Below, piece after piece: positions 2,999 to 34,970 of a stretch of 64,000 nt of DNA; position 1 is the stretch's first letter; each line of letters begins with the position of its first letter. Origin of the DNA: Pseudomonadota bacterium (lineage in GTDB: Bacteria > Desulfobacterota > Desulfovibrionia > Desulfovibrionales > Desulfomicrobiaceae); NCBI GenBank assembly GCA_018902545.1, contig JAHIQM010000022.1, positions 1 to 64,000 on the forward strand, in the 5' to 3' direction. The notes beneath the pieces are model-generated. The model had not been told where the DNA came from and did not search any database. It was given only the letters and a program-made list of their open reading frames with translations. The position numbers were made by a program, and so were the translations under genes.

Positions 2999-4165
2999 CT
3001 AGCTCAATGGAGCACACGAAGAGACTTTGCATTCTCGTGGGAAAAAAATAGAAATTTTACAACCGGAGTTTAATTGGCTTTCAACCCAAATCCGACCGCC
3101 ATGTTTTTCCATAAACTCTTTACATAAAATTAACCCAAGCCCGGACCCTTTCTCCCCTTTTGTACCGAACTGTGATGTTTTGAAATCAATAGAAAATATC
3201 TTAGATTTAGTTTTATGATCCATCCCTACGCCATCATCTTGTACAGAAATAGTAACATCGCCGCATTCCTGCGTTGCTGAAACAGTCACATTACCTCCAA
3301 AATTGCAAAACTTAAATGCATTTGAGAGTAAATTGCGTAGTACGGAATTGATCATTTGTTCATCTGCGAAAACTTTCAACCCAGGCGGCACCATATATTG
3401 CATTGATATTTTTTTTTGATCGACCAGGTTTCGTAGCAGTACCAGGGCGCGATTGATTTGGTTATCCACCTCAAGTTCGCGTGGTTTAAATATGGCCATT
3501 CCTCGCTGCATTGATGCCCATTCCAGCAAGTTCTCCAACAAGGCAAATAGTCTTTGCACCGAGCTATGTATGCTCACTAAAATTTTTTGTAATTCATCGG
3601 ATGAAAAATTATTATAATTTACAGATAGTAGATTGGTGAGGCCGAGTAATCCGGAAATGGGAGATCGTAGGTCGTGGGCAATAATGGAAAAGAATTTGTC
3701 CTTTTCAGCCAAAACTTGCTGAAGCTGATCGCTTGTTCGTTTTATCTCCATTTCTGTCGTTTTGCGTTCTGTAATGTCTGTTACAAATGCTAGAATCAAT
3801 ACTATATTTTCTTTTATATCTCTTACAACACGCGCGCTTATAGATACCCAAGTAATCGCGTCATCCTTGCGGCGAAAACTACACTCGTAATTGCTCACTG
3901 AATCATTTATTTCTAAAATTCCATGTAGTTTATTTTTATCTTCTTTGTTTATATAAAACTGTTCAGCAAATGTTGAAATTGAACTTGTCAACTCACCATT
4001 TAAATCGTATCTAAGTATTTTTATAAATTCAGAATTAACTGAAAGGATTTGACCATCTAATGTTGATGCGTAAAAACCAAATGGTGCATGTTCAATGATT
4101 TCAAAATAATCAAAAGATTGGATACGTCCGAATCGTCTCTGTTTTGATATTAGTTTTTCGGTCAT
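2999..4165 (-). CDS. PAS-domain sensor histidine kinase (orphan, AT-rich)
   Basis: This is a soluble histidine kinase of 388 aa. A PAS domain spans about 20-135 (EHAPFGFYASTLDGQILSVN, ending VTDITERK). The HisKA helix has the phospho-acceptor His near 164 (FFSIIAHDLRSPISG). A complete HATPase follows: N-box RNLLSNAFKF, G1 DDGVGM and G2 GEKGSGLGL. No transmembrane segment is visible, so it senses inside the cell. I chose the ATG at 4165 because GGAG sits six bases upstream; the ATG at 4177 has no such site. No response regulator is adjacent. The gene is much more AT-rich than neighbours downstream, suggesting recent acquisition. Confidence 0.9.
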   Translation of the reverse strand: MTEKLISKQRRFGRIQSFDYFEIIEHAPFGFYASTLDGQILSVNSEFIKILRYDLNGELTSSISTFAEQFYINKEDKNKLHGILEINDSVSNYECSFRRKDDAITWVSISARVVRDIKENIVLILAFVTDITERKTTEMEIKRTSDQLQQVLAEKDKFFSIIAHDLRSPISGLLGLTNLLSVNYNNFSSDELQKILVSIHSSVQRLFALLENLLEWASMQRGMAIFKPRELEVDNQINRALVLLRNLVDQKKISMQYMVPPGLKVFADEQMINSVLRNLLSNAFKFCNFGGNVTVSATQECGDVTISVQDDGVGMDHKTKSKIFSIDFKTSQFGTKGEKGSGLGLILCKEFMEKHGGRIWVESQLNSGCKISIFFPRECKVSSCAPLS

Positions 4166-32028: not shown

Positions 32029-33837
32029 ATGATCGCAGAGGGCATAAGCAGAGTCTGGCTCAAGCATTACGACCAGGAAGTCAGTCCGAACCTGGACTAC
32101 GAAATCATCCCGCTTTTTGAAATTCTGGAACGCACGGCCCAGAATTATCCCGACCGCCCGGCCATCGTCTTCAACAACTGGACCGTGAGCTACAAAAAGC
32201 TCAAACGCCTCGTGGACCTGACCGCCGCCAACCTGAAAAAGAGCGGCGTCAAGCCGGGCGAGCGAGTGGCCATCATGCTGCCCAACTGTCCTCAGGCGGT
32301 CATCAGCTACTGGGCCTGCCTCAAGATCGGGGCCGTGGTGGTCATGACCAACCCCCTGTACATGGAGAAGGAGCTGGTTCACCACTTCAACGACTCCGAG
32401 GCGCGGACCCTCATCACCCTCAACCTGCTCTGGAAACGCATCAATGGCCTCAAAGACAAGCTGCACCTGAAGCGGATCTTCGTGACCTCCATCGCCGACT
32501 GCCTGCGCTTCCCCTTAAATATCCTCTACAGCATAAAGTCCAAGCGCGAATACAAGCTCGGCCCCATCCCCTACGACGGCAAGACCGTCCTGCCCTGGAA
32601 GGGCCTGTTGGCAAGGGCAAACATCGAATCCGCGCACCCCGTCGATCCCGTCAAGGACCTGGCCGCACTGCAGTACACCGGCGGGACCACGGGCGTGTCC
32701 AAGGGCGTCATGCTGACCCACGCCAACCTGGGCTATAACGCCCAGCAGGCCAAGGCCGTGCTGCACACCATCAAGGAGACGGGCGAGATCATGCTTGGCC
32801 TGCTGCCCTTTTTCCACATCTACGGGCTGACGGTGTGCGTCAATTTCGGCACCCTCATCGGCGCGACCCTGGTGCCCATGCCCAAGTTCGTGCCCCTTGA
32901 TGTGTTAAAAACCATTCACAAGAAGCGGCCCACCATCTTCCCGTGTGCGCCGTCCATCTTCATCGCCCTGCTGCAGCAGAAAAATCTGGAGAAGTACGAC
33001 CTGTCCTCGGTGCGCTACTGCGTGTCGGGCTCCGCGCCCATGCCCGTGCCGGTCATGGAGAAATTCAACAGCCTGAGCAGCGGCGCCAACATCGTGGAAG
33101 GTTTCGGACTGACCGAGGCTGCGCCCATCACGCACCTGAACCCCCTGCGCGGCAACAGCAAGAACGGCTCCATTGGCCTGCCCTTCCCGGACACGGACGC
33201 GGCCATCGTGGACATGGAGGTCGGCTCCGTGCCGCTGCCTGCGGGCAAGATCGGTGAAATGGTGGTACGTGGGCCGCAGGTCATGCAGGGCTACTGGAAC
33301 CGCCCCGACGAGACGGCCAGCGTGCTCAGAAACGGCTGGCTCTACACCGGCGACATCGCCTACATGGACGAGGAAGGCTATTTCTTCATCGTCGACCGCA
33401 AAAAGGACCTGATCATCACCGGCGGCTTCAACGTATATCCGCGCGAAATCGACGAGGTTCTGCACGAGCACCCGGCCGTCAAGGAAGCCGTCAGCGTGGG
33501 CATCACCCACCCGACCCGCGGCGAGATCATCAAAGCCTACATCGTGCTGAAAGAGGGTGAAACCCTGACCAAGACCGAGGTGATCGCGTTCTGCCGTGAA
33601 AAACTGGCCAACTACAAAGTCCCCAAGCAGGTCGAATTCCGGGACGACCTGCCCAAGAGCATCGTCGGCAAGGTGCTTAGGCGCGTCATCCGCGAGGAAG
33701 AGGACAAACGGCGCAGCGACGGTGGCGCGGATGTCGAAGACATCGAACCGAACGGTGACGTGGATGGATTGGAGCAGTCACCCAAACGCGACAAGCGTGG
33801 CCGGAAATCGAAAAACGACGGACCGGATGAATCTTGA
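32029..33837 (+). CDS. Long-chain fatty-acid-CoA ligase (FadD-like AMP-forming synthetase)
   Basis: The adenylate-forming enzyme is 602 aa. Visible are the P-loop-like YTGGTTGVSKGVMLTH, the mid motif GFGLTEAAPITHLNP, YTGDIAYMDEEGYFFIVDRKKDLIITGGFNVYPREIDEVL (in pieces) and the C-terminal lysine in LPKSIVGKVLRR. It activates fatty acids as acyl-CoA at the cytoplasmic membrane face. It is slightly longer than E. coli FadD, with a highly charged C-terminal tail rich in Asp/Lys. The stop codon overlaps the -35 box of the downstream riboswitch promoter. Confidence 0.92.
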   Translation: MIAEGISRVWLKHYDQEVSPNLDYEIIPLFEILERTAQNYPDRPAIVFNNWTVSYKKLKRLVDLTAANLKKSGVKPGERVAIMLPNCPQAVISYWACLKIGAVVVMTNPLYMEKELVHHFNDSEARTLITLNLLWKRINGLKDKLHLKRIFVTSIADCLRFPLNILYSIKSKREYKLGPIPYDGKTVLPWKGLLARANIESAHPVDPVKDLAALQYTGGTTGVSKGVMLTHANLGYNAQQAKAVLHTIKETGEIMLGLLPFFHIYGLTVCVNFGTLIGATLVPMPKFVPLDVLKTIHKKRPTIFPCAPSIFIALLQQKNLEKYDLSSVRYCVSGSAPMPVPVMEKFNSLSSGANIVEGFGLTEAAPITHLNPLRGNSKNGSIGLPFPDTDAAIVDMEVGSVPLPAGKIGEMVVRGPQVMQGYWNRPDETASVLRNGWLYTGDIAYMDEEGYFFIVDRKKDLIITGGFNVYPREIDEVLHEHPAVKEAVSVGITHPTRGEIIKAYIVLKEGETLTKTEVIAFCREKLANYKVPKQVEFRDDLPKSIVGKVLRRVIREEEDKRRSDGGADVEDIEPNGDVDGLEQSPKRDKRGRKSKNDGPDES

Positions 33838-33862
33838 CACACTCTGGGCCGGATCTTAGAAT
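33834..33862 (+). promoter_or_regulatory. Consensus sigma-70 promoter for the riboswitch-htpX transcript
   Basis: TTGACA at 33834-33839, exactly 17 bases, then TAGAAT at 33857-33862. The -35 overlaps the stop codon of the acyl-CoA ligase gene. Transcription should begin near 33869, immediately before the aptamer. Confidence 0.8.
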
Positions 33863-33870
33863 TTTCTTTT

Positions 33871-33993
33871 AAAGGGGAGTAGCTAGCGTCTGAGGTGCTT
33901 TCGCACTTCAAGACGCCCCGCGGTTCGTCAGTACGGCTTAACAGCCCGGACCCGGGAATCCGACATCTGTCGAGATAAGCCAGACCTTTATCC
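33871..33993 (+). ncRNA. yybP-ykoY-type (Mn2+) riboswitch aptamer
   Basis: The leader has the conserved 5' strand AAAGGGGAGTAGC (33871-33883) and a variable hairpin (GGTGCTTTCGCAC). A second stem has CGTCAGTACGGC and GGGAATCCGAC. The 3' strand is AGCCAGACCTTTATCC (ending 33993). This is the yybP-ykoY pattern, which senses Mn2+. It lies directly upstream of a terminator and htpX. The call comes from reading conserved strands, not from a covariance search. Confidence 0.8.
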
Positions 33994-34020
33994 ACACGAA
34001 CACGGGTAAAGGTCTTTTTC
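33982..34020 (+). terminator. Riboswitch expression platform: terminator overlapping the aptamer
   Basis: AGACCTTTATCC (33982-33993), the aptamer's own 3' strand, can instead pair with GGGTAAAGGTCT (34004-34015) and is followed by TTTTT. Ligand binding should hold the first strand in the aptamer and let transcription continue, i.e. an ON switch. Confidence 0.8.
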
Positions 34021-34052
34021 TTTACCCCCCCGACCAACTCGGAGGACAAAAA

Positions 34053-34895
34053 ATGAACATGATCAAGACCACTTTTCTCCTGACCCTGCTGACCCTCTTG
34101 CTGGTGGCCATGGGCGGCGCCATCGGGGGCCAGTCCGGCATGATCATCGCCTTTTTCATCGCTGGAGGCATGAACTTTTTCGCGTACTGGAATTCGGACA
34201 AGATCGTTCTCAAGATGTACAAAGCCCGCGAAGTGACTCGCGCCGACAGCCCGGACTTCTATGGCATCGTCGAAAACCTGGCGCGCAAGGCGAACATGCC
34301 CATGCCCAAGGTCTACGTCATCCCCTCAGACAGTCCCAACGCCTTCGCCACGGGCCGCAATCCGCAGAATGCCGCCGTGGCCGCGACCACGGGCATCATG
34401 CGCATCCTCTCCCGTGAAGAACTCGAAGGGGTCATGGCCCATGAACTGGCCCACGTCATGAACCGCGACACCCTCATCTCGACCATCGCCGCGACCTTTG
34501 CCGGGGCCATCTCCATGCTCGGCAGCATGCTGCAGTGGGCGACCATCTTCGGCATGGGACGCAGCAACGACGAGGAAGGCGGAGGCAGCATGCTCGGCGG
34601 TCTGGCCATGGCCATCATCGCGCCCATTGCGGCCATGCTCATCCAGATGGCCGTGTCGCGCTCACGCGAATTCATGGCCGACGCCGATGGAGCCAGGCTC
34701 TGCGGCAACCCCAAGGCCCTGGCCCGCGCTCTGCACAAGCTGCAGCAGTCCGCCACGGCCGCGCCCATGGAGGAGGCCACCCCGGCCACCTCACACATGT
34801 TCATCGTCAATCCGCTCACGGCGAGCAAGCTGGCCAGCCTCTTCTCGACTCACCCGGCCACCGAGGCACGCATCTCCCGGCTCATGGCCATGTGA
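34053..34895 (+). CDS. htpX: HtpX zinc metalloprotease (M48), membrane quality control
   Basis: The protein is 280 aa. Two N-terminal membrane helices (about 5-45) are followed by the zinc motif HELAH (130-134) in [18 protein letters not shown]. More hydrophobic helices (140-205) include the third ligand Glu in [15 protein letters not shown]. HtpX degrades misfolded membrane proteins together with FtsH. CGGAGGAC precedes the ATG. Its mRNA leader carries an Mn2+-type riboswitch with a terminator, an unusual controller for this protease. A bidirectional terminator follows. Confidence 0.95.
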
Positions 34896-34912
34896 GATCA
34901 GACACCAACGTC

Positions 34913-34951
34913 AAAAGAGCCCTGTCCATCATCGGTGGAGAGGGCTCTTTT
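34913..34951. terminator. Bidirectional terminator between htpX and the DUF3047 gene
   Basis: AAAAGAGCCCT (34913-34923) pairs with AGGGCTCTTTT (34941-34951), with A and T runs on the two sides, so it can serve both convergent genes. Confidence 0.88.
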
Positions 34952-34970
34952 ATTTTCGCGATCTTTACGG

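Follow-up and report, generated by a model that had tools for sequence, protein, structure and literature searches.

The window analysed here is a stretch of 64,000 nucleotides (positions 1 to 64,000 of the forward strand of contig JAHIQM010000022.1, assembly GCA_018902545.1) from a bacterium of the Desulfomicrobiaceae, order Desulfovibrionales. It carries the gene htpX (34053-34895), encoding an M48 membrane zinc protease of 280 amino acids, and upstream of it a leader that was examined as a candidate riboswitch of the yybP-ykoY class. All features described lie on the + strand. The protein scored 405 bits with the NCBIfam HtpX equivalog NF002826 (cut-off 369) and reached 2.2e-35 with Pfam PF01435. 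The HExxH zinc motif of the HtpX family is present in the translation as HELAH, and the closest HtpX rows to that of the window in our tree are named Desulfomicrobium, so that the host looks like a member of this genus. A ribosome binding site, GGAGG at 34041-34045, was found 7 bases 5' of the ATG. An intrinsic-terminator-like hairpin at 34913-34951 (34908-34960: -27.7 kcal/mol, z -6.3) lies 3' of the gene. The strength of this hairpin suggests that htpX is transcribed alone.

The leader is preceded by a sigma-70-type promoter, TTGACA-17-TAGAAT, whose -35 element starts at 33834 and whose TAGAAT ends at 33862. The first-pass annotation, made from the sequence alone, had described it as perfect. 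The promoter is present, but the word slightly overstates the case, since 11/12 consensus bases are matched. The stop codon of the upstream acyl-CoA-ligase-like open reading frame (ORF; named by eye) falls within the -35 element. A similarly placed TTGAC-type -35 was seen ahead of most of the 30 htpX leaders compared.

Downstream of the promoter an aptamer of the yybP-ykoY type with a length of 123 bases was located at 33869-33991. The conserved strands named in the first-pass annotation are present, with AAAGGGGAGUAGC at 33871-33883, CGUCAGUAC at 33926-33934 and GCCAGACCUUU at 33979-33989. For comparison, leaders were collected by a pattern consisting of a GGGGAG.AG-like L1 and a 3' GACCTT strand at most 300 bases upstream of htpX. 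A MAFFT alignment of 28 of the 30 leaders (A1; L032 and L051 left out) was rejected as its L3 was misaligned, because the Nitrospirota leaders lack P2. It was split into A2, with the ten closest leaders, and A3, with 18 rows.

The switch helix P1.1 pairs AAAGG (33871-33875) with 33985-33989. In A2, 98% of its cells are paired, and no covariation is visible because four of its five pairs never vary. The 5' part of the L1 loop, GGAGUA of GGGGAGUAGC (33876-33881), is invariant in 10/10 rows. The remaining elements P2, P3, P4 and L3 are outside the pattern by which the leaders were selected. For the P2 hairpin (33886-33916) four of six tested pairs change on both sides in A2. The P3 hairpin with its internal loop L3 (33917-33956) shows double changes in 2/6 basal and 3/4 apical pairs. 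The P4 hairpin (33958-33976) changes on both sides in three of seven pairs, with 77.9% of the cells paired, and in all seven in the model-based alignment A6. The metal-site strand of L3, CGUCAGUAC (33926-33934), includes A33930, which is A in 10/10 rows of A2 and 17/18 rows of A3. By position mapping, A33930 would be the Mn2+-contacting adenosine, A41 in L. lactis and A48 in X. oryzae numbering. The N7 of this adenosine contacts Mn2+ (PMC6754395, PMC9190785; these and all further papers are cited from excerpts).

As a whole, A2 has 91.6% paired cells and double changes in 12/31 pairs, and its covariation score was matched by none of 500 shuffles. In A6, with 33 matches, double changes were found in 24/31 pairs and 92.9% of the cells are paired (0/500 shuffles). 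In both alignments the support is far lower once the partners are slid, with the paired cells of A6 dropping to at most 43.3%. The figure from A2 is the cleaner one, since the alignment of A6 was fitted to the structure. The folding z-score was -7.1 for 33868-34030 and -4.7 for 33868-33995, and for either stretch none of 200 shuffles was as good.

Two covariance models were built. For model R1, six htpX leaders from Desulfuromonadales served as the training set, with no sequence of the window's own order among them. It was searched against 84 sources, namely the window, 80 htpX loci, two loci of E. coli and L004, which comes from the same genome as the window. At 33869-33991 it scored 82.8 bits with an E-value of 1.5e-23, the E-values being rough because the calibration was short. 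With default filters the E. coli alx leader was matched with 27.6 bits (E 1.2e-5). In the alignment of alx the 3' end was set on bases that lie closer than the GAGACC strand. With the filters off the E. coli mntP leader gave 19.2 bits, the best score in its 10-kb locus (next 8.1), and alx was first in its own. Thus, a model that had learned from htpX leaders alone ranked both E. coli Mn2+ riboswitches first in their loci. The broader model R2 holds 33 sequences including the window and alx. L016 (cut by a contig end), L032 and L051 (insertions in P4) and L050 (weak) were left out of it and of the model-based alignment, and a weak match at L028:5031 was excluded from it by the E-value limit. 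Two of the four exact GGGGAGTAGC sites in the genome (L003, L005) were rejected as candidates, as neither an aptamer on reading nor an R1 match was found there. Membership of the leader in the yybP-ykoY class is supported by the independent model R1, by covariation, by recurrence before htpX and by the other genes bearing such leaders, in agreement with the first-pass annotation.

The 3' strand of the aptamer is used twice. An intrinsic terminator at 33982-34015 has a stem of 12 bp, AGACCUUUAUCC / GGGUAAAGGUCU, and a loop of 10 nt; 33982-33993 pairs with 34004-34015, and the isolated hairpin has -15.9 kcal/mol. As the first-pass annotation had claimed, the stem is made from the aptamer's own strand, for it includes the 3' strand of P1.1 (33985-33989). 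A T run follows at 34015-34019, its first T paired in the stem, and 33 bases separate its end from the htpX start codon. A standard terminator scan of the leader reported none, with a loop limit of 8 against the loop of 10 here. The overlapping terminator was recognised by script in 27/30 htpX leaders; in L011, L013 and L048 it was read by eye, as variants missed by the regular expression of the script.

CCUUU can pair either in P1.1 or in the terminator stem. Nascent RNA that ends at 33999 adopts P1.1; as soon as it includes the downstream strand, the structure with the terminator is lower by about 11 kcal/mol. In these folding predictions the order, P1.1 first and terminator later, would be as expected for a ligand-dependent ON switch. 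In the class mechanism, P1.1 is stabilised by Mn2+ and the terminator is thereby kept from forming (PMC11087558). By analogy, Mn2+ would be the ON signal here as well. The transcript would begin a few bases 5' of AAAGGGGAGUAGC, and the aptamer would fold with P1.1, P2, P3 and P4, elements supported by sequence and comparison. Mn2+ would then bridge the loops L1 and L3 and stabilise P1.1, so that CCUUU (33985-33989) is held in this helix, the terminator is blocked and htpX is transcribed. Without Mn2+, the downstream GGGUAAAGGUC would invade P1.1 and the 12-bp terminator would form, stopping transcription before the ribosome binding site; the elements of this step and their conservation are likewise supported by sequence and comparison. 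We consider it highly probable that the htpX leader is a yybP-ykoY-class riboswitch acting as an Mn2+-dependent transcription antiterminator, with Mn2+ as its predicted ligand.

The survey of htpX leaders in related genomes that the first-pass annotation had proposed covered the best 80 of 323 relatives found, in named genomes. The leader pattern was detected at most 300 bases upstream in 29/80 htpX loci from three taxonomic groups, so that a riboswitch-type leader before htpX, as annotated in the window, is a recurring arrangement. Three of these loci belong to Desulfomicrobium/Desulfovibrionales (L008, L009, L014), six to Desulfuromonadales and 20 to a Nitrospirota HtpX clade. R1 confirmed 28 of the 29 at E<=1, all but L051, with weak matches in L050 and L032. 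It also matched the 3' part of a leader in L016, a locus truncated by the end of its contig. On the HtpX tree, 31 of 81 rows carry the leader label (window and L016 included). The label changes nine times versus 25.2 times in shuffles, none of 500 shuffles being as low, with near-copies contributing to the low count. Two clades are rich in labels. A clade of 14 rows has 11 labelled (support 98/95) and one of 25 rows, mostly Nitrospirota, has 20 (99/96). In another Nitrospirota HtpX clade none of 19 rows is labelled (support only 87/79). Three assemblies have two htpX loci among the 80 (L051/L061, L047/L075, L032/L058), with the leader at the first-named locus only; each has one htpX in the 25-row labelled clade and one in the 0/19 clade. 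Of the 16 genomes taken to form the window's genus, 14 have a close HtpX match (E<1e-140), and in 11 of these 14 a model match lies directly before it. The genus counts overlap with those from the 80 loci, because L008, L009 and L014 appear to come from assemblies that are also among these genomes.

Deviating forms of the leader were observed as well. In the Nitrospirota loci L032 (2743-2945) and L051 (2729-2939) about 100 bases are inserted inside P4, with ends that resemble inverted repeats; perhaps these insertions represent a small mobile element in the riboswitch. In L033, in the 320 bases upstream of position 3001, the promoter runs directly into the 3' side of P4 and the terminator, and the aptamer lacks its 5' part, either by natural loss or by an assembly fault.

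Furthermore, related leaders precede other genes. R2 matched 51/199 genomes of the order at 77 places; both numbers are lower bounds because a wider candidate scoring added two places, one of them in the unmatched genome G011. The genes downstream of the resulting 79 places were assigned by tblastn against six references over 0.9-2.5 kb. An assignment was obtained at 48 places, and 31 stayed unassigned. A single type was found for Tim44-like genes (14 places), HtpX (11), TerC/Alx-like genes (10) and antiporters like the window genome's own (4). Mixed cases combined a Tim44-like gene with TerC (6), with HtpX (2, one also with a TerC match) or with the antiporter (1). The proteins of 11 mostly unassigned loci were inspected; nine are alike, with about 400-435 amino acids, and the one scanned, L106, is a PF01699 Na/Ca exchanger. 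Tim44-like genes and htpX also occur side by side. In L140 (G078) the leader, a Tim44-like gene and HtpX follow consecutively in an apparent operon, and a second htpX lies elsewhere in this genome. In L116 (G101) the leader, a Tim44-like gene and htpX also form an apparent operon, with only the start of HtpX within the stretch.

The window genome has four leader copies. Besides the copy before htpX, one precedes a PF01699 antiporter with a 51-amino-acid ORF between (L090, G000:C3:127837), one a Tim44-like membrane protein gene (L092, G000:C3:164768) and one a Tim44-like gene cut to 98 amino acids (L091, G000:C7:4923). R1 was weak on both Tim44-linked copies (E 0.009 and 0.003). A search for sister leaders in 24 genomes whose htpX has the leader gave a TerC-like gene (by eye) in one Desulfuromonadales genome, and a gene for a PMR1-type ATPase follows a related leader in L049. 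Sister copies are thus found with Mn2+ or cation transport genes, namely relatives of TerC/Alx, PF01699 antiporters and a PMR1-type ATPase. Since related leaders precede genes of these kinds and Tim44-like genes, htpX seems to be part of an Mn2+ regulon. In five of the 24 genomes searched, from the Nitrospirota HtpX clade (L229, L230, L215, L220, L233) a beta-carbonic-anhydrase-like gene (by eye) follows a sister leader, about 5-7 kb from the htpX leader. Carbonic anhydrase, usually a zinc enzyme, is unexpected as a target of the class.

The L3 types differ between these copies. The L3 of htpX leaders in the window's genus is of the type seen in alx and L. lactis (C-G-N-C-A), and the order's copies before TerC, antiporter and Tim44-like genes are mostly of the mntP type (CAACA). 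The regular expression used for typing picked up part of P2 in L009 and in the corresponding leader of the genus, and gave no match in one genus member, in L053 and in several unassigned leaders; those printed were read by eye. Because the htpX leaders are of the alx/L. lactis type and the resident copies of the mntP type, it is probable that the leader came along with htpX, by inheritance or by acquisition, and is not a copy of a resident riboswitch.

A number of results weigh against the assignment or limit it. The search with RF00080 (Rfam 15), by which the first-pass annotation wanted its claim checked, gave no match at E<=10 in 33780-34100, and a genome scan with this model gave none at any of the four copies of the window genome. 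In ten related loci, of which nine have an htpX leader, a single match was obtained (L013, 26.5 bits, E 0.0022; cut-off 45). The controls qualify these negatives. With E. coli, the mntP leader reached 41.6 bits, below the cut-off of 45, and the alx leader was not reported at E<=5 (E. coli stretches concerned: L087 5462-5558 and L088 2375-2480). In the built-in control of the genome scan the model matched in 9/14 known genomes, above the cut-off in two. Since the same library leaves alx unreported and mntP below the cut-off, the negative result in the window says little. The current Rfam model passes over alx-type members, and annotation by RF00080 may overlook them.

Other adverse points concern our own comparison. 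With default filters, R1 did not report E. coli mntP at E<=1. The pairs of P1 (P1.1 and P1.2) hardly vary in the alignments, and among the five covariation measures for A2 the one that counts further pair types was matched by 16/500 shuffles. The conservation of L1 and the 3' GACCTT is partly due to selection, because the leaders were picked with a pattern there. L053 has lost the L3 motif and is the sole row of the 18 in A3 without the metal-site A. The pattern is absent from 51/80 htpX loci (L016, cut by a contig end, among them), and an HtpX match was found in 182/198 genomes of the order, most of the HtpX genes found there having no model match before them. Three Desulfomicrobium-type genomes, G034, G048 and G064, have htpX with no aptamer seen on reading. 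In these genomes of 2.3-2.8 Mb (L187, L188 and L185, respectively) a TTGACA-like sequence still lies upstream of htpX. Finally, some yybP RNAs may sense other divalent ions (PMC7266159).

An aptamer of the yybP-ykoY fold might have shifted to such an ion, e.g. Zn2+, Fe2+, Cd2+ or Co2+, with htpX answering that ion. Altered specificity is considered probable for some yybP RNAs (PMC7266159), HtpX is a zinc enzyme by its family name, and the sister leader before the carbonic-anhydrase-like gene in the five Nitrospirota-clade genomes could be read in the same way. Yet L3 reads CGUCAGUAC here and CGUCAUUAC in E. coli alx, with the same metal-site A, and the genes found behind such leaders (TerC, PMR1-type ATPase, cation antiporters) fit Mn2+, so that we regard a shift of the ion as unlikely. 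The likeness to alx bears on another explanation, a sensor primarily of alkaline pH as in the E. coli alx leader, with Mn2+ secondary; htpX would then be a gene for alkali or envelope stress. In favour of it, the L3 belongs to the alx type, R1 matched alx more strongly than mntP, and alx also responds to alkaline pH. Alkalization has moreover been linked to the E. coli Mn2+ riboswitches (PMC9603457), a point counted for this explanation. The expression platform in the window, however, is an overlapping terminator, unlike the longer alx leader, and no pH-specific class occurs among the assigned downstream genes (48/79); such a sensor is very improbable.

The overlapping terminator itself could be a ligand-independent attenuator or a relic that always wins or always loses, htpX then being constitutive or regulated elsewhere. 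In a plain fold, the structure with the terminator is favoured over that with P1.1 by about 11 kcal/mol, and L033 keeps the terminator with the 5' part of the aptamer gone. Against this, the compensatory changes in P2, P3 and P4 and the conserved unpaired L3 point to selection on the aptamer beyond the hairpin alone, and we give this explanation hardly any credence. An Mn2+-dependent antiterminator is preferred.

Compared with known systems, the leader shares with that of E. coli alx the L1 GGGGAGUA(G/A)C, the L3 CGUCANUAC with the Mn-site A, the CCGG closing and the 3' GAGACC or CAGACC, and alx is matched by the htpX-leader model R1. The conserved L1 GGGGAGUA is present in the window leader, the comparison rows having been selected on L1. 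In contrast, the alx leader is longer and has no separate P2 hairpin by eye, and the leader in the window controls a protease gene with a terminator overlapping P1.1. The L. lactis riboswitch of yoaB, a P-type ATPase gene, is found before a different gene than htpX, and at the position of its U44 both the window and alx have A. It has the same architecture, in which the 3' strand of P1.1 is shared with an intrinsic terminator for Mn2+-ON antitermination (4Y1I, 6CB3; PMC11087558). Its metal-site nucleotides G9, U39, C40, A41 and C45 have the same letters at the window positions by our own mapping (PMC9190785). With X. oryzae and the mntP type of E. coli the leader shares the class and the invariant A, and the other three copies of the window genome share their L3 type CAACA; the htpX leaders of the genus, in contrast, are of the alx/L. 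lactis type. For the protease, a parallel is given by YqgP-FtsH of B. subtilis, a membrane protease deployed against Mn2+ toxicity. There, Mn2+ is sensed by a domain of the protease itself and not by a riboswitch, and the protease is of another family (PMC7231995).

The first-pass annotation had suggested that Mn2+ stress is coupled to membrane-protein turnover, an inference that two reports make more plausible. HtpX is among the proteins co-purifying with the TerC protein MeeF of B. subtilis, together with translocon parts and FtsH (PMC10550928), and in the same species YqgP/FtsH give protection against an excess of Mn2+ through proteolysis at the membrane (PMC7231995). On the simplest reading, excess Mn2+ would raise HtpX, within the same regulon as TerC and cation exporters, to remove mismetallated or stalled membrane proteins made under this condition. 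Alternatively, HtpX may degrade a metal importer. The pairing of the leader with htpX in distantly related bacteria suggests that membrane-protein quality control is raised at high manganese.

The RNA is a member of a known riboswitch class, whose described targets are mainly transporters and TerC-type genes (PMC7266159, PMC3766115). In the open-access literature searched, htpX did not turn up as a recurring target; it may stand in earlier gene lists, possibly also under this motif in PMC3766115, which surveyed RNA regulons in groups including Desulfovibrionales. In the examined parts of PMC6337395, PMC3188799 and PMC7011215 a link to htpX was not reported, and an open-access search for 'yybP-ykoY' and 'htpX' together gave only PMC10550928 and its preprint, the portion consulted concerning co-purification.

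Taken jointly, the results may describe an Mn2+-dedicated branch of HtpX and an envelope quality-control regulon in which Mn2+ excess induces membrane proteolysis, metalation and export, a proposal to which we give even chances. The branch would comprise two HtpX clades in three groups (Desulfomicrobium-type Desulfovibrionales, Desulfuromonadales and Nitrospirota), with the second htpX copy unlinked in the three assemblies where it was seen. The regulon would include htpX, TerC, Tim44-like and exporter genes, joined in Nitrospirota by carbonic-anhydrase-like genes. If the class is repeatedly linked to a quality-control protease, this would indicate what is damaged by Mn2+ excess, namely membrane or exported proteins. 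Such a link fits the reported co-purification of the B. subtilis protein MeeF with HtpX, FtsH and parts of the translocon (PMC10550928). With a defined inducer, the purpose of HtpX would become testable.

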